This document shows positions 7,861-60,332 of a stretch of DNA of 64,000 nucleotides, in pieces (position 1 is the first letter of the stretch; the number at the start of each line of letters is the position of its first letter). The position numbers and the translations under genes are program-made. Where the stretch lies: positions 1-64,000 of the IMG/VR virus record IMGVR_UViG_3300037493_005292; one strand, 5' to 3'. The notes under the pieces are model-generated. The model saw only the letters and a list, made by a program, of their open reading frames with translations. It ran no database searches and was not told where the DNA came from. Source of the stretch: a virus.

Positions 7861-7915
7861 GTATTTTTGCTTGCGTCTTTTCCTAAAACGCCTATATGTA
7901 CGGTGTCACACCACT

Positions 7916-8008
7916 GACCGCCTTTGGTGGACGAGTTTTTGAGCTGCACGCACCAGCTTTGAATCCCCCCGACAATACCCAGAACGTACACATACACCAA
8001 AGGCGGTC
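7916..8008. repeat. Perfect 14-bp inverted repeat upstream of a leaderless promoter
   Basis: GACCGCCTTTGGTG at 7916-7929 is the exact reverse complement of 7995-8008. The 65-nt interval contains a smaller hairpin (AGCTG/CAGCT) near 7942-7958. The right arm ends 9 bp before the -10 hexamer at 8017, so it covers the -35/spacer zone of that promoter. It may be a two-site operator, or a stem in an RNA read from a possible promoter at 7871-7898 (TTGCGT, 16 bp, TATATG). The rest of the 7861-8028 gap holds no gene that I can see. Confidence 0.75.
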
Positions 8009-8013
8009 GTCTA

Positions 8014-8022
8014 TGCTAAAAT
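8014..8022 (+). promoter_or_regulatory. Extended -10 promoter giving a leaderless mRNA
   Basis: TGC followed by TAAAAT at 8017-8022. The hexamer ends exactly 6 nt before the ATG at 8029, so initiation at the usual distance would fall on the A of the start codon. No Shine-Dalgarno sequence is present. The same 6-nt geometry recurs at 9080-9085, 60356-60361 and, on the minus strand, 63161-63166. Confidence 0.6.
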
Positions 8023-8028
8023 TCGACC

Positions 8029-13248: not shown

Positions 13249-13691
13249 TCTGCGTTCTCCTCAATGTGTGGAATTGTCTCGAGACCTACTAGCTCGTAAT
13301 ACCAGGTATCACCTGCGCCCTCGTCTAGCACGAAGTTTATGCGGACACGCAAGTACTTGTTGATGCGCAGCTTTCCCGGCTGTCTGTGCCGCGCGCCCAC
13401 CCACCCCAACCCGTCAATGAATATCATCGAAGCAAATTCGAGTTCATGCGCTACGACGTTTATTACCATGTGTGGGGTAAGCGGTAAGACCGTCTTAGCG
13501 CGTTTTATTGTCCAATAACGGCTAGAGGTGGCGCACCGTTCTACGTTTTCGCAGTGCCCTACCAACTCGAGGTCGTTCGTTCCCTCTATCCTAGCCCATA
13601 GCTGTATCCGGGTCGTGGATCCCCAGCATAAGTCATCTGGAACATCTATTTCCTGGCCGTTATATGGGTCTTGAGGTAACGGTTCAGTCAT
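13245..13691 (-). CDS. Hypothetical protein
   Basis: 148 residues, mostly beta-structured by appearance, with an acidic N-terminus and several Trp and Cys residues (DLCW, GHCENVERC). No conserved enzyme motif is visible. The ATG at 13691 overlaps the end of the dNMP kinase gene and has GGAG upstream. It sits in an operon with the kinase and the coiled-coil protein, so it may act in DNA precursor metabolism or be an unrelated passenger. Confidence 0.65.
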   Translation of the reverse strand: MTEPLPQDPYNGQEIDVPDDLCWGSTTRIQLWARIEGTNDLELVGHCENVERCATSSRYWTIKRAKTVLPLTPHMVINVVAHELEFASMIFIDGLGWVGARHRQPGKLRINKYLRVRINFVLDEGAGDTWYYELVGLETIPHIEENAE

Positions 13692-14293
13692 ATCTTATGC
13701 TCCAGTGCCGCATGGATATTAGACGCATAGCGCGCAAATTCTCCAGGGTTCTTTACTGTTGCGTAGATGTGTTCCGGTGGGATGTCCCACATTGAGGTTT
13801 CGCTCGCATGTCCCAGTAGTGCGTCGTCTTTAATATCTGCGCTGTAGTTCCGTTTTTCGGGCACGATTAGGAGGTTAAGCGCGTGGTATTCCTTAACGAG
13901 AGCAGCTGCCTCATTAGGAAACCGGATGTCGGTGACCACGATTATCGCGCGTTTGTTCTTGTCGATAGCACGTTGCAACCCGAGAGGATCCACGCCGTTG
14001 CCGACGTAGTCGTCGATTCGTGTGAGGAGCTTATCGATCCAGATATCCGGGTTGTGACCGCGGCAGAGTTCGGTGCCGAACTGCTGCATGAGCTTACGGA
14101 TCTCAGGACCTTTTGTTTCGCTAGGACCCCACAGTTGGTCGTGGGATAGGTCGAAGATGTCCAGGAGGTAGCATTTCATGGCGTCTGCGAATGCCAATGA
14201 GCGTGCACCATGGCTTTGCTCCAGTATCTTGGCCGCAGTGTCCTTGCCACTTCCCATTCCACCTATGATGCCGATAACAAGAGGACTACGCAT
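13688..14293 (-). CDS. Deoxynucleoside monophosphate kinase-like P-loop kinase
   Basis: 201 residues from the ATG at 14293, chosen because GGAG lies 8 nt upstream and the P-loop GGMGSGKDT (residues 11-19) then sits at the usual distance from the N-terminus. TDIRFPNEA near 125 matches the conserved D-R-F-x-N-E motif of phage T4 gp1-type dNMP kinases. The product would phosphorylate dNMPs to dNDPs, complementing the NrdJ reductase encoded elsewhere in the window. It starts 8 bp inside the preceding gene. Confidence 0.8.
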   Translation of the reverse strand: MRSPLVIGIIGGMGSGKDTAAKILEQSHGARSLAFADAMKCYLLDIFDLSHDQLWGPSETKGPEIRKLMQQFGTELCRGHNPDIWIDKLLTRIDDYVGNGVDPLGLQRAIDKNKRAIIVVTDIRFPNEAAALVKEYHALNLLIVPEKRNYSADIKDDALLGHASETSMWDIPPEHIYATVKNPGEFARYASNIHAALEHKI

Positions 14294-14609
14294 TCGATGT
14301 CTCCGGTGTAACGGGCTCGTCTGGGTCAATCGCAGCTTCAACCGGGTCGTTAACCTCAACAAAGTCTGACTCCACTCGGGTGTTGGTGGCCGCGTCGATG
14401 TCGATGATAATGAAGCGTCGGCCGTTTACAAGTTTGGCGTACACGGGAATGCGGCTAGGGAGGGCTTCTCCGAGGTCTATAGAGGTGTATTTGTGTGAAG
14501 TTCTGGGAAGGGTGCTCTCCCATACGGCATCTGTAAGGAGAATACCCCCCGAGTCAGTATCGATGTAACCGACAACGGTTTCTTTAGAAGGAAATTGAAC
14601 AATGGCCAT
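14286..14609 (-). CDS. Hypothetical small beta-rich protein
   Basis: 107 residues with an N-terminal beta-rich body and a disordered acidic, Pro-rich tail ending PVTPETSNA. AGGAGGG precedes the ATG, and an extended -10 promoter (TGC-TATAAC) lies about 32 bp upstream. It is the first gene of the operon that includes the dNMP kinase and the holin-like protein. No family recognised. Confidence 0.65.
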   Translation of the reverse strand: MAIVQFPSKETVVGYIDTDSGGILLTDAVWESTLPRTSHKYTSIDLGEALPSRIPVYAKLVNGRRFIIIDIDAATNTRVESDFVEVNDPVEAAIDPDEPVTPETSNA

Positions 14610-14640: not shown

Positions 14641-14649
14641 GTTATAGCA
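14641..14649 (-). promoter_or_regulatory. Extended -10 promoter for the dNMP kinase operon
   Basis: On the minus strand TGC precedes TATAAC (14641-14646). The transcript would start near 14634 and carry a 25-nt leader with AGGAGGG before the ATG at 14609. It lies just downstream of the terminator at 14664-14693, so the upstream and downstream transcription units are insulated. Confidence 0.6.
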
Positions 14650-14663
14650 CAGTCTTTAGGAGC

Positions 14664-14693
14664 AAAAAAAGGGGTGCTGTAAAAAAGCACCCC
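14664..14693 (-). terminator. Strong Rho-independent terminator
   Basis: On the minus strand GGGGTGC-TTTTTTACA-GCACCCC (14671-14693) is followed by seven T residues (14664-14670). Four bases of its 5' arm (14690-14693) also belong to the closing stem of the adjacent structured domain, so the two foldings compete. Confidence 0.9.
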
Positions 14694-14833
14694 CTCTTCT
14701 CACTGAGAGAGCCGAGCTCCTGGCGATCGAGCGTCTGGGGCCGCGGCTGCTATTTTGGTTGTCCTACAACCACACCGAACATACCGTAGTATCTACGGCC
14801 CTACGGAAAGGAAGGACATCTGAGAAGAGGGGG
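14690..14833 (-). ncRNA. Structured RNA domain 1 (tandem copy next to the terminator)
   Basis: A perfect 13-bp closing stem pairs 14690-14702 with 14821-14833. Inside, on the plus-strand reading, CTGAGAGA follows the stem directly and GACATC directly precedes its partner arm. Local hairpins are 14709-14719 (GAGC/GCTC), 14757-14771 (GGTTGT/ACAACC) and 14784-14798 (CCGTAG-TAT-CTACGG). The same junction sequences and hairpin order recur in domain 2 with different stem sequences, which supports RNA structure rather than chance. The minus strand is favoured because the terminator and the upstream transglycosylase gene read that way. I do not recognise a known RNA class. Confidence 0.65.
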
Positions 14834-14847
14834 TACACAAAAACAAC

Positions 14848-14975
14848 GATACCCTCGCTGAGAGATGGAGCTCGATTCTCCTGGCTCCTTCTTCCTCGGG
14901 TAAGGGCGCTGGCGCCCAGACAGATATTGCGCAGTATCTGCGCATGTCTGTAACAAACAGACATCCGAGGGTATC
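14848..14975 (-). ncRNA. Structured RNA domain 2 (tandem copy next to the transglycosylase gene)
   Basis: A perfect 10-bp closing stem pairs GATACCCTCG (14848-14857) with 14966-14975. Shared with domain 1 are CTGAGAGA at 14858-14865, CTCCTGGC at 14878-14885 (14717-14724 in domain 1), a hairpin with loop TAT (GCGCAG/CTGCGC, 14929-14943) and GACATC at 14960-14965. Further hairpins are 14867-14881, 14904-14917 and 14944-14964 (ATGTCTG/CAGACAT). A GGGC-GTAA-GCCC hairpin (minus strand, 14977-14988) sits between the gene's stop codon and this domain. A 14-nt A-rich linker separates the domains. It may be a long 3' untranslated region, a processed small RNA or a tandem regulatory element. Confidence 0.65.
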
Positions 14976-14987
14976 GGGGCTTACGCC

Positions 14988-15800
14988 CTACACTTTAAGC
15001 GCCCGGAAGAACGACCTTCCAAAACGCATGACTTTTTCGAGGTAATCGGGGGAGCGCCGACCTGGCCAGTATGCTGCGGGATCCTTCGTGTCGTACTCAA
15101 CTCCGCGGCGGACGAGTTCAGCAAAAACGTTACGTATGCCGCTGCCCAGAGTTGTGTATTGGCGGAAGTCTCCCTTCTTTTTGTTCCACATGATTTGGCC
15201 CGGTCCAAGATCCGCGCTTCGGTGCTCTTTTTCCCATTTTGGGTTTTCGAGAACCTCAGCGAGTTCATCCTCCGAGTAGCTGTAAGCGCGGCGTCCGTGT
15301 AAAAGCAGGAGGCCGTGTTCTGCAGCCCATTTCCTAGGCCAAGGGCCGATAGCGCACCGGTCAAAGCGCGACTCGTTTGTGATGATACCTAGTGCAGACT
15401 CCATGGGTACGGTAACAGCCTCGCCACTCTTTAGGTTGTATGTGGCATCTCGTTGCGCATCGTAAAGCGCTACTGCCCACTTAGTAGAAGCTTCCTGCTT
15501 CTTAGAAAGAGTGGTGTACCGTTCTCCACACTCATACCAAAGTTCACCATCCAGTTTGGTTTTCCAGGCAACCAAACTATTTGCGATCCGGTCAATGCTC
15601 ATTTCCCGCTCTTCATTAGTACCGTAGGGGGCCACGTCCTTGTTTAGGCGTGCTTCCTCTTGCTCCCTGTAGACTGTTGCCAAAGACTTTGTGATCACGC
15701 GCGTACCTTCCCAGGGAAGGTTCCTCTTGTTTTCCTGGGTTCCACCTGTACACAGTAGTCCCAGGATAACATAAACGAGTATTACGCCTCTCAGTCGCAT
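14988..15800 (-). CDS. Exported lytic transglycosylase-type endolysin
   Basis: 270 residues. The N-terminus (MRLRGVILVYVILGLLC) is a signal or signal-anchor sequence, so the enzyme should reach the periplasm or outer surface. GIITNESRF with E143 is the catalytic Glu motif of SLT/goose-type transglycosylases, and LGPGQIMWN (about 198-206) matches their G-x-M/GxQI motif. These enzymes cut the MurNAc-GlcNAc bond of peptidoglycan. AAGGAGG precedes the ATG and TGC-TATAAT lies about 40 bp upstream, so it has its own promoter. The mature enzyme is longer than typical phage lysozymes; residues 25-130 are of unknown function. Confidence 0.8.
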   Translation of the reverse strand: MRLRGVILVYVILGLLCTGGTQENKRNLPWEGTRVITKSLATVYREQEEARLNKDVAPYGTNEEREMSIDRIANSLVAWKTKLDGELWYECGERYTTLSKKQEASTKWAVALYDAQRDATYNLKSGEAVTVPMESALGIITNESRFDRCAIGPWPRKWAAEHGLLLLHGRRAYSYSEDELAEVLENPKWEKEHRSADLGPGQIMWNKKKGDFRQYTTLGSGIRNVFAELVRRGVEYDTKDPAAYWPGRRSPDYLEKVMRFGRSFFRALKV

Positions 15801-52636: not shown

Positions 52637-53992
52637 TTACCTGTTTCGGTTGAACTCAGTGCTGTTGGTCATGGCTCCTATCCCCCAGTAAGAAACGAAA
52701 TCCAACGGGTTTGAGATGTCGATCTGATACCAACTACGTATCTCGTAGTTGCACAATGCGGATAGCCTAACTTCGCCGCCGTACCGCGTTTCTATAAACG
52801 CGATGGGATAGTCAACGGTGCGAAAACCCCGGCTATGCGTGGGACTTCTGGACCTAGTGGAAGCCATATAGAGCATGGCTTTTTGCTGTTTGGTCATTTC
52901 GAGGTACGCAGGTGGATCTTTAGCATCGTCACCTAGAAGGCCCAATACTGCATCGAATCCTTGTATTTTGATGTCTTTGAAGCGGTAAGGGTCCCGCTTA
53001 TGCCGCAGTACAGCGACCAGCTTATCTCCGTTGTGGTACTGCTGTGTTAGGGTTAGGTAAACTACACGTCTTTTGTACCGGCGTGAAAGTAACCCGCTGT
53101 TGTATGCAATGTACGCAAGCTGTTTGTCGGTGTACTCTGTTTCCATCCCTTGGATAACAGTGTCGAGATACTGATCCCAGTTATCGTACTTGAAGGTTCC
53201 CGTACAATACCTGGCGTGGTAGAAGTTCTTTCCGTTTTTACCTTCTCCCGTGCATCCCTTGTAGAGCAGACACGTTGTACACGTCTTGCGCTTAAAGCGC
53301 ACGAGAGCGGCAGACTTAATAGACCTATCACGTTTTTCGTATACGTTTTCTGTGATCAACTCAAAGTGATGTTGGTCTAGTCTGCGTACGCTGTTTTCAA
53401 AACTCTTAGCGGCAGTCATCGTCGGGCTTACGTATTCAAAACCTGCGATGACTCGATTGCGCTTCTTACGCGCCCATTCAATGATGTCTTCAGCTCCCTT
53501 ATCAGATTCTTCTCCGTCATCCTTGAGGGCTAGTTCTTTAGGGCGACAGTGGTTGGTGGTGTCGGGGATTTCCATGCAGCCGCTACACCCCAGAACGTAC
53601 TTGTGTGGAAGCGCGCAGCGGTCGTACACGGTAGCTGCGTCAAATGACTCGATGCCGTCTCTGTGCACAATGTCAAATGTGCCCCGAGTTACGTCTAGTT
53701 TATTGACGTAGTTTTTCGTGTCATACGACGCAATGAGCAATTGGTATTGCCGGTCTTTAGACTCTAGGTCGTATATACGGGGTATAACGATGTACGGGAA
53801 TCCTAGAAATTCTCGTAGTTGTGGGTTGTTTGAGATGGCGTGTACGATGTCAGGCGTGTGGATGCTGGGAGCGTCGCCAAAGTCATCAAGATTGATGAAT
53901 ACCAGAATGGGGCGTTTGGAGTTAGTCGCATAACCCCGGGCTGGTACTAATCCGCTCTCCTCCGTCGCTACTGTCCAGTATAGTTTTCCCAT
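52637..53992 (-). CDS. Cys-rich protein downstream of the reverse transcriptase
   Basis: 451 residues with two Cys clusters: CSGCMEIPDTTNHC (about 135-150) and CTTCLLYKGC followed by a later YCTG (about 235-270), likely zinc or iron-sulfur sites. Other features are an alternating N-terminal alpha/beta part (RPILVFINLDDFGD) and an acidic insert. The ATG at 53992 overlaps the RT gene by 71 bp; no alternative start was convincing. No family recognised. It is the last gene of the VWA/Cys-rich/RT operon and a candidate effector or accessory factor. Confidence 0.65.
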   Translation of the reverse strand: MGKLYWTVATEESGLVPARGYATNSKRPILVFINLDDFGDAPSIHTPDIVHAISNNPQLREFLGFPYIVIPRIYDLESKDRQYQLLIASYDTKNYVNKLDVTRGTFDIVHRDGIESFDAATVYDRCALPHKYVLGCSGCMEIPDTTNHCRPKELALKDDGEESDKGAEDIIEWARKKRNRVIAGFEYVSPTMTAAKSFENSVRRLDQHHFELITENVYEKRDRSIKSAALVRFKRKTCTTCLLYKGCTGEGKNGKNFYHARYCTGTFKYDNWDQYLDTVIQGMETEYTDKQLAYIAYNSGLLSRRYKRRVVYLTLTQQYHNGDKLVAVLRHKRDPYRFKDIKIQGFDAVLGLLGDDAKDPPAYLEMTKQQKAMLYMASTRSRSPTHSRGFRTVDYPIAFIETRYGGEVRLSALCNYEIRSWYQIDISNPLDFVSYWGIGAMTNSTEFNRNR

Positions 53993-55115
53993 GGTCTAGT
54001 GCCAGCTCAAGTTCTTTGGCCAGCTTGGCTCCTTTCGTAGGCATGATGTGGCGGTAGTAGTTGAGTTTACCCTTTAGCCAGGTAATGAATGTTTCGACGT
54101 CGTTAAACCCAGCACGCTCGTACTGCGTATCTGCCCCCCAAACAAAGCAGTTGTGTACAATCGCTTTTATCTGGAGGTAATCGTGCCGCGCGATGTTGGG
54201 TCGCTGGTTAAACACAAGTCCTAGCATCTGTTTACGGAAATTCTCGCTGTGTAGTTTGGTTTTGCCCGTATTGGGTTGATACCCTGCAGCGTAAATAACC
54301 TGGTAAAAGCGGCGTAGGATGTGTTCTTTTTCGATTAAAGAGAAGTCTCTTCCACACGTGAAAGAGAGGTCGTCGGCATACCGCGAGTAAACCCACCGAT
54401 ATGCACCTTCCAGTTGGTACTGCTGGTTCATGGATTCAAGAAGTTGAAGCATGGGGATGTCGAGCACACGGTCAGCAACTAGATTGCAGATGCTTCCGGC
54501 GGTTGGGTTACCTTGCGGAACACCACAGAAGAATGGTGGTGCGGTCGTTTCAGGAACGTAGTGCGTGTTGGGAATGCCCGACACGGTAAACATTCCTCCC
54601 AATAGACTCGCAGTCTCATGGGGGTATCCCAGGCTCTTAAAGTAGTTACGGACCTTGCTCTTGCTGGTAGTAGAGAAGAAGTCTTGCAGGTCGATTTGGA
54701 TGTAGGCACCGCGGCGAGGACACCGGTGTTTAGGCGGGGTATAGGATGGGTCACCGTTATTGTCACAAACAATGCATGGAGCAATGTGTCGCGCCACAGC
54801 GTCCTTGATGCTTTGGCCGGTACGGTAGGCGGTGACGTGTCCCCCTAATTGCTGGTGTAGGGGTTCAAGGAAGGTCTTGTTGAGGATTTTCATGAGGGCT
54901 TTCATTAACGGCTCCGGGGCGTGGATAACGCGGAATCCTCCTTTCTTCTTGGGTATTTTGAACACATGGTAACGTTGTTTGACGGGAGCTACAATGGTGT
55001 ACCACAGGACTTTGTTTCTCATTCCCAGGTGGTAAGCCAATGAGAAGTCATCGAATGGGAGATGATTTTCTACGTCATAGCCCGTTATCGTCGTTTCCGG
55101 GTACCCTGGCGGCAT
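53922..55115 (-). CDS. Retron-like reverse transcriptase
   Basis: 397 residues, ATG at 55115 after AAAGGAGAT. Motifs in order: GFRVIHAPEP (RT1/2), YIQIDLQDFF (RT3, first catalytic Asp), FFCGVPQGNPTAGSICNL (RT4), YSRYADDLSFTC (RT5, YADD), GKTKLHSENF and LGLVFNQRPNIARHDY (RT6/7). This matches the retron-like group rather than group II introns or diversity-generating retroelements; the RT4 motif lacks the SQ typical of the latter. Two Cys pairs (CIVCDN, HRCP at about 115-131) insert a zinc-like module before RT3. No canonical msr-msd RNA gap lies directly upstream, because a coding gene overlaps its start. Confidence 0.9.
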   Translation of the reverse strand: MPPGYPETTITGYDVENHLPFDDFSLAYHLGMRNKVLWYTIVAPVKQRYHVFKIPKKKGGFRVIHAPEPLMKALMKILNKTFLEPLHQQLGGHVTAYRTGQSIKDAVARHIAPCIVCDNNGDPSYTPPKHRCPRRGAYIQIDLQDFFSTTSKSKVRNYFKSLGYPHETASLLGGMFTVSGIPNTHYVPETTAPPFFCGVPQGNPTAGSICNLVADRVLDIPMLQLLESMNQQYQLEGAYRWVYSRYADDLSFTCGRDFSLIEKEHILRRFYQVIYAAGYQPNTGKTKLHSENFRKQMLGLVFNQRPNIARHDYLQIKAIVHNCFVWGADTQYERAGFNDVETFITWLKGKLNYYRHIMPTKGAKLAKELELALDHGKTILDSSDGGERISTSPGLCD

Positions 55116-55720: not shown

Positions 55721-57259
55721 TTACTCCGTTATTTGGATAGTGCGATCTCCCATAGCGGGGTCGGCCTTTCCAGAGGGTGTTAGTACCCAGATAACTGGGC
55801 AGTTTGGGTAGAGGGCTGGTGCAGGACCACCGTGGTCAGAGCTAACGGGCGCATACCCATCAGTGAACATGAGGAAGAGGTCAATACGGGGAAGACGTTC
55901 GACAATACGGTGTTCTGTTTTATCATCCCACAACGACTCGTCCTGCTTACCGCACACCCGTCTGAACGCGGGACAGAAGTCAGTACCGCCATAACCGTAG
56001 CGGTATAACTCGCGCTTCAACTTTGAAATATCCGCTTCGTTTTCGGTGTCTATCCAGGTCTCAAACTGGATAGCAGCATCGAACATCATGAGATGGATGC
56101 GTACACCCTTATGAGACTTAGGAATGTTGAGAATTTCAGAGATAAACCGGACAAACTCGTCGTCTCCTACTGACCCACTCGTGTCCACGGCAATGCTGAG
56201 CACGAACGTAAAGTCATTTTGGAAACCAGGGTAAGGTTCGATGCCGTCGTCCATGACCGGAAACAACGCTGTATTGGGTAGGCAGACGCTCTCTACCAAC
56301 TTGGAACTGATAACTGATTTGATCTGTCCCTTGAGAACGGTTTCCCAGGGAATTGTTGCAGGGGTTAGGAAATCCTGCAGTGCCTTGGCGATACCTCCTG
56401 GGATAGTTCCGCGGCCACGCTCCGTTTGTTCGATAGCTGTTTTGATGATTTTCTTTCCTTCGCGTTTGGCGCGGTCGAGCATCCTTTCGACTTCAGCAGA
56501 GGTCATCTCACTGAGGTCGTGGGTGATGTCGATGGGCTTGAGCTTGGAACTTTCTACCAATGACTTGAACCACCCGGGAAGTTTTTCGTCGAGCTCTTGC
56601 TGCTTAGCGGATCCGGGGGCTACATCGGGATCCTCTTCCGAATTACCCCCAGCTCCTCCAGAACCCTGTTGGTTACTCTCGGATGATTCTTGCGGAGCGT
56701 TACCGGTAAGTGCTTGGCCAATCTGTTTGTCTGTGTCCAACACGTTCTGCATGTCGTACCCAGACTTCTTGAGGTCATCGAGGAGCATGTCCAAATACTC
56801 CTCAAAGCTCTTTCCAACGGGGTATTCGCGGTCCTCTGGCCAGATGAAATCGCTCCGGAAGTCCCCAAAATTATGACCGTACGCTTTATCCGTCAGGAAG
56901 GGACGCACAGCTACGTCGTTGACGCACATGTCTGCCGCGACGTTGACTACTGGATGGAGCCTTTGCGCAGCTACCGGACTGAGGTTGGCAAGGACGCGAG
57001 ACATGCGTTCAACATGGCGTAACGCCAGGTGTCCTGCCTCATGGATGACCACCAAGATGCGAAAGCCTTGGGCAGTGGACTCAAACCACGCTGTGTCGTA
57101 CATAAATAGGTATCTACCAGATTTGGGTAGTGTTACACCGCAGGTTCCGAGTCCGGGAGCAGGTATCTGGACGCACTGGTTGAGTAATCGGCCGTAAAAA
57201 TTGTTGCCTCCACGAGGAGAACAGGTCCATTGAAGAACCTCACTGAGAGCAGTTCCCAT
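55721..57259 (-). CDS. Metallopeptidase-VWA protein (DUF2201-like)
   Basis: 512 residues from the ATG at 57259, preferred over the longer frame because AAGGACAAGAAAGAG precedes it. HEAGH (H73-H77) is a zinc metallopeptidase motif; the C-terminal VWA-like domain contains VDTSGSVGDDE, a metal-ion-dependent adhesion site. The linker (about 180-260) is Gly/Ser/Asp-rich. This architecture is that of putative peptidase plus VWA proteins that pair with MoxR AAA+ ATPases, and such an ATPase is encoded 1.8 kb away. It is the first gene of the RT operon. Confidence 0.85.
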   Translation of the reverse strand: MGTALSEVLQWTCSPRGGNNFYGRLLNQCVQIPAPGLGTCGVTLPKSGRYLFMYDTAWFESTAQGFRILVVIHEAGHLALRHVERMSRVLANLSPVAAQRLHPVVNVAADMCVNDVAVRPFLTDKAYGHNFGDFRSDFIWPEDREYPVGKSFEEYLDMLLDDLKKSGYDMQNVLDTDKQIGQALTGNAPQESSESNQQGSGGAGGNSEEDPDVAPGSAKQQELDEKLPGWFKSLVESSKLKPIDITHDLSEMTSAEVERMLDRAKREGKKIIKTAIEQTERGRGTIPGGIAKALQDFLTPATIPWETVLKGQIKSVISSKLVESVCLPNTALFPVMDDGIEPYPGFQNDFTFVLSIAVDTSGSVGDDEFVRFISEILNIPKSHKGVRIHLMMFDAAIQFETWIDTENEADISKLKRELYRYGYGGTDFCPAFRRVCGKQDESLWDDKTEHRIVERLPRIDLFLMFTDGYAPVSSDHGGPAPALYPNCPVIWVLTPSGKADPAMGDRTIQITE

Positions 57260-57275
57260 CTCTTTCTTGTCCTTT

Positions 57276-57300
57276 CTTTTGCTGCTATACTTGCAGCGGG
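57276..57300. promoter_or_regulatory. Divergent promoter overlapping a small inverted repeat
   Basis: GCTGC-TATACTT-GCAGC (57281-57297) is a 5-bp inverted repeat around TATACT (57286-57291), the forward -10 with an extended TGC. In reverse the same bases read AAGTATAGC and serve the VWA gene at 57259. The forward transcript would start near 57298 and carry GAGGTG before the ATG at 57321. The repeat could also be an operator. Confidence 0.5.
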
Positions 57301-57320
57301 TTTCTACTATGAGGTGTGTA

Positions 57321-58325
57321 ATGATTGACCAGACATCGGACGCCGGGTTTGCCACGCTGCGCACACTTGCGGATATGTTTCCGCAGCTCGAAGAACTCGC
57401 AAAGACCGCGGAGCTGGATCCGGGGGAGTTTGAGGCTCTTCCTGATTCAGCGTTTGCGTGGCCCGAAGCGCGCCGACTTCCAATTCATAACCGTGAGCAC
57501 ACCGCGATCTCGTTAGCGTACGAGAAAGTTGCGGTCGAGTTGCCCAAGTATGCGCACCATGCTCTACAACAAGCCGCTGTTGCTTACGGACTGGATGCAG
57601 AGATATTTGACCGACCCCTTCGATTGGTCAAGACTGCTTCAGCACCTGAATTCTGGCTCCTCCCGACGCACCAGCGTTTCCGTGTTACCTCCGCAGAAGA
57701 CGTCAAGCTCGCGGAGCAAGCGATCCAAGCGCGCAGTAAAGACCTGCCGCCCAACGAGCGCGCCGAAGCCATGATCAATCTGGAGAAGGTGGCGACGTTC
57801 TTCGGGGTTTCTCTAGCACCTTCTACCAAGAAGATCGCTGGCTTTACGCTGACGAATACGCGTACGTTGCGCGATTGGCTGCAGGCCAGGCAAGAAGCGG
57901 CAGAGAAGGTGGGATCGGACTTGTCTGCGACTTACGGAGAGCTGGCGCAGCAGTTCGACGGCGTGAACACGCACATCGCGAATCGCGACTACCAGGTAAA
58001 GTTGGCGAGCGCCATCAATGACCTGGACCAGAAGTCCGGTGTTTCGAAGTTCTACGGAAAGTCACTGCTGGACCCCATTGAGACAGTTTGGAACACCACC
58101 AAGTTGTCCGCGGACACAATCGACGTCAATGGGGTGATGCTCGATAAGGGCATGCTGGCTTCCCTGCCCATCACGTTCTGGCAGGATGTGATTGGGCCGG
58201 ACATGGCCCAGGAGATCGCTCCCAGTGGGCAGGTCGACCCGGAGCTCTTGGCGCAGATCATCCCCACTCTTCCGGCAGACCTCAAGTCTGTGCTGGTCAC
58301 GCAGCTATCCGCCTACCGTTCATGA
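57321..58325 (+). CDS. Hypothetical protein
   Basis: 334 residues from the ATG at 57321, which follows GAGGTG at suitable spacing; an upstream ATG at 57309 is less likely. The sequence is mostly helical with several Ala/Glu-rich segments, such as LTNTRTLRDWLQARQEAAEK. No catalytic motif was seen. It overlaps the next gene by 4 bp and is divergent from the VWA gene. It may be a virion or adaptor protein of the MoxR/VWA system, but this is speculative. Confidence 0.6.
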   Translation: MIDQTSDAGFATLRTLADMFPQLEELAKTAELDPGEFEALPDSAFAWPEARRLPIHNREHTAISLAYEKVAVELPKYAHHALQQAAVAYGLDAEIFDRPLRLVKTASAPEFWLLPTHQRFRVTSAEDVKLAEQAIQARSKDLPPNERAEAMINLEKVATFFGVSLAPSTKKIAGFTLTNTRTLRDWLQARQEAAEKVGSDLSATYGELAQQFDGVNTHIANRDYQVKLASAINDLDQKSGVSKFYGKSLLDPIETVWNTTKLSADTIDVNGVMLDKGMLASLPITFWQDVIGPDMAQEIAPSGQVDPELLAQIIPTLPADLKSVLVTQLSAYRS

Positions 58326-59101
58326 TCCACGAGCAGCTCCAGGAGTTTATGCAGTACGTTCCGCGGCTGCATGCCGGCATGCTTAAGACGGCTGCCGCCG
58401 TGCTCTCAGCACGCGAGATGTTACAGAACCCGCATCAGGCAACGGCTGTGGGACTGTACCTCGCTGCGAAGGCGCTCTACGGAGAGGACCTTTTGCAGTG
58501 GGAACCGGAGACTCTCTGGCTTACCCTGGAAAAGGATAAGATTGACCTTACGGAGCTCGAGCGTAATAAACTTCAAGCGGCCATCACGCTCACTACGAAC
58601 CCCGCGTTCTACTGGGATAACTTGGTGTTTCAGCGCACAGTCCACGCGTTATGCGAGGAGTACTACGATTCGGAATCGTTACTTGAGTGCAGTGTGGCGC
58701 ATATGTGTTGGGCGGTTTATGAAGCTGGTATTCTTCGGGGGTTAGACCAGGAGACTCCGCAGATTCCGGAGTTTGATGAAGACGTTCAGCAGTATGTCGC
58801 GGTGTGCTTATCCCGCGCCGGCTATGCCCTCCCCCCACCCCCTTTGGTGGAGTTTTGCGAGGATAACCTCGACGCGCTTTTCGCCAAAGGTTCTGAGTTC
58901 GCAGAGCTAAAAAAAGAGCTCAAGTACGCATGGGCTAAGCTGGACAAGAGCGCCCTCGAAAGAACTGAGTTCTCCGAGGACGCTCTTGGTATCCAGCTTT
59001 CCCGCCTTTCCTTCTGTTATTTGTACGTCAGCGAGCGTGCCGACGCCGTTGCTGCAGACCTGGCCAAACTAGGCAGTCATACCAAGGTCACTTCGTTCTG
59101 A
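58322..59101 (+). CDS. Hypothetical helical protein
   Basis: 259 residues with ATGA coupling to the gene before. All-helical by appearance, with many Leu, Ala, Glu and scattered Cys (ALCEEYY, LECSVAHMCWAV, VCLSRAG, EFCED). The last 14 bp overlap the end of the converging AAA+ ATPase gene. It resembles no family I know; the shared setting with the preceding gene suggests the two proteins act together. Confidence 0.6.
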   Translation: MIHEQLQEFMQYVPRLHAGMLKTAAAVLSAREMLQNPHQATAVGLYLAAKALYGEDLLQWEPETLWLTLEKDKIDLTELERNKLQAAITLTTNPAFYWDNLVFQRTVHALCEEYYDSESLLECSVAHMCWAVYEAGILRGLDQETPQIPEFDEDVQQYVAVCLSRAGYALPPPPLVEFCEDNLDALFAKGSEFAELKKELKYAWAKLDKSALERTEFSEDALGIQLSRLSFCYLYVSERADAVAADLAKLGSHTKVTSF

Positions 59102-60332
59102 TCTTCTCTTCCACTGACTTGTACGCAGAGTCCACGCGCTGATGCCACTCAATGAATCCCTCTTGGTTCTGCATGCCACGCATGAAGTCCTTGAGGTATT
59201 CCTTGGCGTCTGACTCGGCAGCGATAGCCCGTTGTTGTTGCAGCATCATGGCGCCCTGTTCATTGGGAAGGTCAATCAAGAACTGTACAAAGTTCCCGAC
59301 TGTTTTGTCGATGCTGGGCTTGACTGCGAACAGCGTTTTGAGAACGTTATGGCACAGGTCGGTAAGGACCTCCATGCGCCCGTCTGTAATGAGCTTCTTG
59401 ATTTTGGACTTGACGGTTCCGTAGCTCTCGAGCACATCGCCCGCGTTAATCAAGGTGTTGTGGTCCTTGATGTACGCGCAGATTTGTTCTGCAGCATGCA
59501 CGCCCACGGACGCAGCGAATCTGTTAATGGCGGTTTCGCCGTACAGACTCTTGCCGCTCTTTTCGAGGACGTACGCACTGAGGCTCAGCGTCTCAACCGT
59601 GGCGGGACACATGAACTGCTTGTTGTTCTTCAGTGCCTCTTCATCGTACAGCAGCTTCGGCGCTGCTTTGATGGGTCCCAGGATGGCGGGATGACACGGT
59701 TTGCCATCTTCGCCAATCGCTTTACAGACACGGTCTGCGTAATGGAAATCGTTTGTTTTTGCGTGGTTCAGCCAGTCAGCGTACGATGGTACTAGAAATA
59801 CTTTACGCAAGCGCCTGTTAAGCGCTGCATTGTTTTCGATCTGTTGGACGTTGTAGTTGGCGCCGGCCGGATTCATAAGCGCCACGACGATTGCGTCATC
59901 GGGAAGCTGGTAGTCGTACATGTTCCGGTCCTCAATGAGGCTGAAGAACATGGCAATGGCGTGCTGCAGACCCTGATTGATTTCGTCGAACAGGACAATC
60001 GCTTTTTCGCCTTTGCGCGGGAACATCTCAGGAAGCTTCACCTTGAAGAAGCCTTCATCAGAATCCCGTACGGATGGGATTCCGGCTCCCATAAGTCCAT
60101 ATTGCGCAGTACGGATCACGCATACGCGGTATCCGTGTTTGCGGGCGAGTTGGTTGATGACCTGCGTCTTACCAACTCCTGCTGGTCCAATAACACACCA
60201 GCAGCCGCGGAGTTCGCGCTCGAGCATTGTCATCTCGAATTGTGAGCCGAACTCCCTAAGACCCATGCGGGGTATGTCGAGTAACTCAGCGTAATCAGGG
60301 GTGGTTTTGGTCTCTTCTTGCTTCTTAGCCAT
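59088..60332 (-). CDS. MoxR-type AAA+ ATPase
   Basis: 414 residues. Walker A GPAGVGKT (49-56), Walker B AIVLFDE (111-117) followed by INQG, and a sensor-1-like VVALMNPAGAN at about 150 identify an AAA+ ATPase of the MoxR/RavA/CbbQ group. These ATPases work with VWA-domain partners to remodel or activate target proteins. The metallopeptidase-VWA gene at 55721 is the likely partner. The start follows AAAGGAAAG; its promoter (reverse TATAAC, 60354-60359) overlaps that of the terminase gene. Confidence 0.85.
   Translation of the reverse strand: MAKKQEETKTTPDYAELLDIPRMGLREFGSQFEMTMLERELRGCWCVIGPAGVGKTQVINQLARKHGYRVCVIRTAQYGLMGAGIPSVRDSDEGFFKVKLPEMFPRKGEKAIVLFDEINQGLQHAIAMFFSLIEDRNMYDYQLPDDAIVVALMNPAGANYNVQQIENNAALNRRLRKVFLVPSYADWLNHAKTNDFHYADRVCKAIGEDGKPCHPAILGPIKAAPKLLYDEEALKNNKQFMCPATVETLSLSAYVLEKSGKSLYGETAINRFAASVGVHAAEQICAYIKDHNTLINAGDVLESYGTVKSKIKKLITDGRMEVLTDLCHNVLKTLFAVKPSIDKTVGNFVQFLIDLPNEQGAMMLQQQRAIAAESDAKEYLKDFMRGMQNQEGFIEWHQRVDSAYKSVEEKIRTK

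Follow-up and report, generated by a model that had tools for sequence, protein, structure and literature searches.

Tandem structured RNA modules with covarying stems form an uncatalogued family in one phage clade

In the virus record IMGVR_UViG_3300037493_005292, the minus strand between a gene for a 270-aa protein and a gene for a 107-aa protein includes two long closing stems in tandem. Do these stems enclose related RNA domains, to which class would such domains belong, and do they control the gene that follows? The window analysed here is bases 1–64,000 of this record, which is 98,876 bases long and in which no end repeats were found. The original prediction of two adjacent domains was correct in position. 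Read on the minus strand, D2, the 5' domain, extends from 14976 to 14847 and D1, the 3' domain, from 14836 to 14687, both within the single intergenic gap. The closing helix P1 is a perfect 11-bp stem in D2 (14976-14966/14857-14847) and a 16-bp stem with one G-U pair in D1 (14836-14821/14702-14687); the long paired stems are real, and only the lengths first given for them, 10 and 13 bp, needed correction. Just inside P1 are the identical junctions GATGTC (14965-14960 in D2, 14820-14815 in D1) and TCTCTCAG (14865-14858 and 14710-14703), previously read on the plus strand as GACATC and CTGAGAGA. Also common to both domains, as had been noticed, are the element GCCAGGAG and a triloop hairpin, P3, with the loop ATA (14944-14928 in D2, 14799-14783 in D1), for which the stem is of 7 bp in both but of different sequence. 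The remaining hairpins are P2 (14964-14957/14951-14944), P4 (14917-14904) and P5 (14888-14884/14871-14867) in D2, and P4 (14771-14757) in D1.

Two copies of the arrangement GATGTC-N-GCCAGGAG-N-TCTCAG are present in the window, and none of 100 shuffles has one. Each domain folds better than all of 200 shuffled sequences (z -5.8 for D2 and -2.8 for D1), and the window has five perfect stems of at least 11 bp closing 60–200 nt where 1.6 would be expected; D1 and D2, adjacent in the same gap, account for two of them. No tandem repeat was found at the DNA level. A search with the Rfam 15 covariance models gave no family match at gathering scores, the arrays showing only sub-threshold chance matches, in agreement with the earlier impression of an unrecognised class. 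Elsewhere in the window, a perfect 14-bp inverted repeat, GACCGCCTTTGGTG..CACCAAAGGCGGTC, was observed at 7917-8008 in the intergenic gap 7861-8028, without a triloop module.

Searches of phage and viral contigs with the neighbouring DNA and proteins identified no close relatives, and the 270-aa, helicase and kinase proteins likewise found none among viral contigs. The large terminase detected 25 contigs, mostly 47–67% identical, and two of them, G002 and G004, share the local arrangement of a transglycosylase-like or 270-aa-type gene, a gap, the 107-aa gene and the gene for deoxynucleotide monophosphate (dNMP) kinase, with flanking proteins 35–43% identical to those of this phage. The 270-aa gene (14988-15800, minus strand) has a 42% identical homologue at the same place in G004, and in G002 its place is taken by a shorter lytic-transglycosylase-like gene. 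The 107-aa gene (14286-14609, minus strand), followed by the kinase gene (13688-14287), is conserved in the two syntenic relatives (37–43% identical); its product has a predicted beta-rich fold of low confidence (pLDDT 55), which was left out of the reasoning. An alignment search with an 85-aa protein retrieved only these two syntenic phages and nothing in bacterial genomes. In both relatives three structured domains follow one another in the same gap, on the strand that encodes the 107-aa protein. With the two domains of this phage they make eight, and every one has a triloop hairpin of the form G-NUA-C or G-UAA-C, on stems of differing sequence. By scanning the relatives, intergenic clusters of triloop hairpins were also identified beside the terminase gene in eight records (G003, G004, G006, G007, G010, G011, G016 and G017), G004 thus having arrays at both sites. 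These terminase-side arrays lie mostly just downstream of the terminase gene and convergent with it, and lead no gene on their own strand. In four further records (G014, G015, G018 and G024) the triloop hairpin was found without a clear P1–GA frame.

When the search was extended outward from each hairpin, a common frame emerged, consisting of P1, GA, the G-NUA-C hairpin, AG and the 3' half of P1. Among 33 candidate domains, the loop NUA is present in 27, and both GA and AG in 24, a count that is not independent since the scoring favoured GA/AG. P1 takes 27 distinct sequences in these 33 candidates and is paired in all of them. Examples of first-domain stems that are changed and still paired are GGTACTG/CAGTACC and TGTACTG/CAGTACA, and the corresponding P1 is CTTTTGTCG/CGACAAAAG in G004 and CTATTGTCG/CGACAATAG in G010. 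In an alignment of 28 excerpts, both partners vary in ten of 11 pairs, and the covariation score is 0.994 compared with 0.241 after shuffling and at most 0.19 with slid partners; since the stems in this alignment were selected for pairing, part of its 100% pairing comes from that selection. Two lines of evidence are independent of it: pairs that differ between domains at corresponding positions, and the enrichment of the descriptor (P1, GA, triloop hairpin, AG and P1 3' half) over its controls. This descriptor gave 35 matches in 1.45 Mb, of which about 24 lie inside the intergenic arrays, a few kb in all, against nine in 1.06 Mb of unrelated contigs, nine in the reversed relatives and four after block shuffling. 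The proposal of tandem homologous RNA domains with covarying stems is therefore strongly supported by the relatives, in which P1 sequences change yet stay paired. The modules are homologous, share a covarying structure and are found at recurring genomic positions; they make up a genuine and so far uncatalogued family of structured phage RNA, found in one phage clade within the searches made. No description of the element was found in a search of the open-licence literature for tandem structured phage RNAs beside terminase.

Wider pattern searches added no member. The sequence GATGTC..GCCAGGAG..TCTCAG occurs at 37 loci in viral contigs, none with a matching P1, and was set aside as chance. With GTACTGGA..GHTAC..AGCAGTRC, the confirmed stretches among the 80 listed of 88 were known members of the clade, and the four best new candidates listed fall in open reading frames. 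Of the named phages, Arash of Salmonella and D181 of Vibrio are the nearest by polymerase; Arash has four descriptor matches, all within annotated genes, and D181 has none. The clade includes an RNA polymerase-encoding member, which is this phage. An Rpb1 domain-5 (beta'-like) protein and a sigma-70-like factor were identified (L041:6749-8554 and L040:7666-8679, both on the plus strand), so that, judged from sequence, the phage is predicted to encode its own RNA polymerase of multi-subunit type; the nearest named phages for the Rpb1 domain-5 protein are Vibrio D69/D181/D148 (33%) and Salmonella Arash (28%). The window also encodes a reverse transcriptase domain (PF00078; 53922-55115, minus strand), near which no direct repeats of at least 40 bases, as in a diversity-generating element, were found, and a VWA/metallopeptidase-like protein (DUF2201) with a nearby AAA ATPase (AAA_5) (55721-57364 and 59088-60332, both minus strand).

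With respect to transcription, an intrinsic terminator, GGGGTGCT-TTTTTAC-AGCACCCC-T7, was identified on the minus strand at 14664-14693 from sequence, energies and pairing probabilities. The overlap between its 5' arm and the end of D1 P1 is of seven bases (14693-14687), not four as originally counted. Two TGNTATAA boxes (15881 and 15847) precede the 270-aa gene, so D2-D1 is probably the 3' end of its transcript; the sequence immediately before D2 shows no obvious promoter. The same box precedes a further gene (20784) and the 107-aa gene (14649), where the extended -10 promoter-like sequence TGCTATAAC (14641-14649, minus strand) would probably start a new transcript past the terminator. Among the relatives, a TATAA-like box, GGTATAA, stands just before a first P1 in G003, G004, G007, G010 and G011, and a box near the first P1 reads CGTATAAA in G017 and GGTAAAAG in G006 and G016. 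All of these promoter boxes are sequence matches rather than mapped transcription starts.

The best explanation, to which we assign a probability of about 0.6, is that D2 and D1 are modules of a phage-specific family of structured non-coding RNA, and that the array is transcribed and functions as a trans-acting or scaffold RNA, not as a switch. Each module would be multi-branched, with the long closing helix P1, the GA...AG junction just inside it, P3 with its G-NUA-C triloop, usually the neighbouring hairpins P2, P4 and P5, and finally the 3' half of P1. In this phage the two modules would end the transcript of the 270-aa gene at the intrinsic terminator, and in the relatives they would more commonly make up a free-standing array that points toward the terminase gene and has the TATAA-like box bordering its first P1. 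The RNA may bind a phage or host factor, or may self-assemble; we infer such action in trans from the position of the arrays and from the promoter boxes.

Arrays are located where transcription units end and in gaps between convergent genes, which would also suit a cis-acting element that stabilises the end of the upstream mRNA, reinforces termination and insulates neighbouring or convergent units. In this phage a T6 run directly follows D1 P1, ahead of the strong terminator, and a U-rich stretch follows D2 P1. A plain stabiliser or terminator, however, has no need of a conserved GA..AG junction or an NUA triloop, or of as many as five modules over about 1 kb, and several arrays of relatives have a promoter box of their own, so that this explanation appears doubtful.

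A switch was the function first proposed, the competition between D1 P1 and the terminator being taken as that of an attenuator or a tandem riboswitch. As in tandem riboswitches (e.g. the tandem glycine aptamers), two homologous aptamer-like domains are followed by a terminator, and in three phages the array precedes the same operon of the 107-aa protein and dNMP kinase. In the partition function of the D1-terminator RNA, however, every pair of P1 forms with a probability of 0.81–1.0 and the terminator with virtually none, and a fold constrained to contain the terminator is about 5 kcal/mol less stable; the two foldings are thus far from balance in this equilibrium model, which does not represent co-transcriptional kinetics. 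In G004 the terminator and the last domain's P1 have no bases in common, no terminator was detected after the G002 array, and the domains, unlike known tandem riboswitches, match no known aptamer. Location upstream of a gene that could be controlled holds for the 107-aa site but fails for the terminase-side arrays, which are the majority, and in this phage the 107-aa gene has the promoter-like box of its own past the terminator. A regulated attenuator is unlikely because P1 dominates, G004 lacks the overlap and the terminase-side arrays lead no same-strand gene, and riboswitch control of the 107-aa/dNMP-kinase operon appears quite improbable.

That the array directly adjoins the gene for the large terminase, the packaging ATPase, in most relatives recalls the pRNA of phage phi29, likewise a structured phage RNA with branched hairpins, and raises the idea of a packaging RNA or another partner of terminase. 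The array of this phage, however, is about 45 kb away from its terminase gene, no Rfam packaging RNA is matched, and the phages are unrelated. No test of sequence or structure links the array to packaging, and the shared location may merely be a gap between convergent genes; a role in packaging is very unlikely.

The choice of strand bears on whether an RNA is involved at all. At D1 and D2 the stability of the folded plus strand equals or exceeds that of the minus strand, and in most arrays the antisense strand matches or surpasses the sense strand, so the strand cannot be told from folding energy. When wobble types were treated alike, the P1 stems showed 15 G-U against three A-C, whereas the unrestricted stems of the arrays showed the two about equally (39:33) and were uninformative. 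The minus strand is indicated by the terminators in this phage and G004, by the promoter boxes of the relatives and by the excess of G-U over A-C in P1, which is supporting evidence for RNA on this strand. An element acting as DNA in replication or packaging (a cruciform or palindrome array, REP-like) would fit the folding of both strands and the intergenic hairpin arrays, but is scarcely credible in view of this wobble excess, the strand-specific TATAA boxes and terminators, and stem sequences that differ between copies, unlike those of REP elements.

The preferred reading, a transcribed trans-acting or scaffold RNA, can be carried further. The AGCAGTRC end motifs are repeated within some arrays, nine in the array of G004 and three each in G006, G010 and G016. 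In the terminase-side array of G004 (53020-54300, minus strand) all nine are in the sense orientation and none antisense, with only four elsewhere in the 107-kb record. As a tentative possibility, the arrays would encode promoter-driven modular RNA machines, in phages that have a multi-subunit RNA polymerase of their own, each machine consisting of two to about five rapidly diverging copies of the module with interchangeable closing helices; pairing between AGCAGTRC repeats could then join modules or copies, assembling an RNA or RNA-protein scaffold.

Among known phage RNAs, the closest comparison is with GOLLD and ROOL, which are RNAs of phages and prophages, of unknown function, often located near tRNA islands, and which form cages (PMC12286853). 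The arrays described here are likewise phage-encoded, non-coding and highly structured, but no covariance-model match to GOLLD or ROOL was found, and the modules are repeated units of about 100–330 nt in contrast to a single fold of 600–800 nt. Different from the frequent location of GOLLD and ROOL near tRNA islands, no tRNA gene was found in the record of this phage.

The finding adds an uncatalogued family of structured RNA to a poorly known phage lineage. The anatomy of its sequence, comprising P1, the GA/AG junction, the NUA triloop and the promoter box, lets the family be found and tested, and as a modular family varying in copy number and genomic position, it offers a natural comparison for the function of GOLLD and ROOL.
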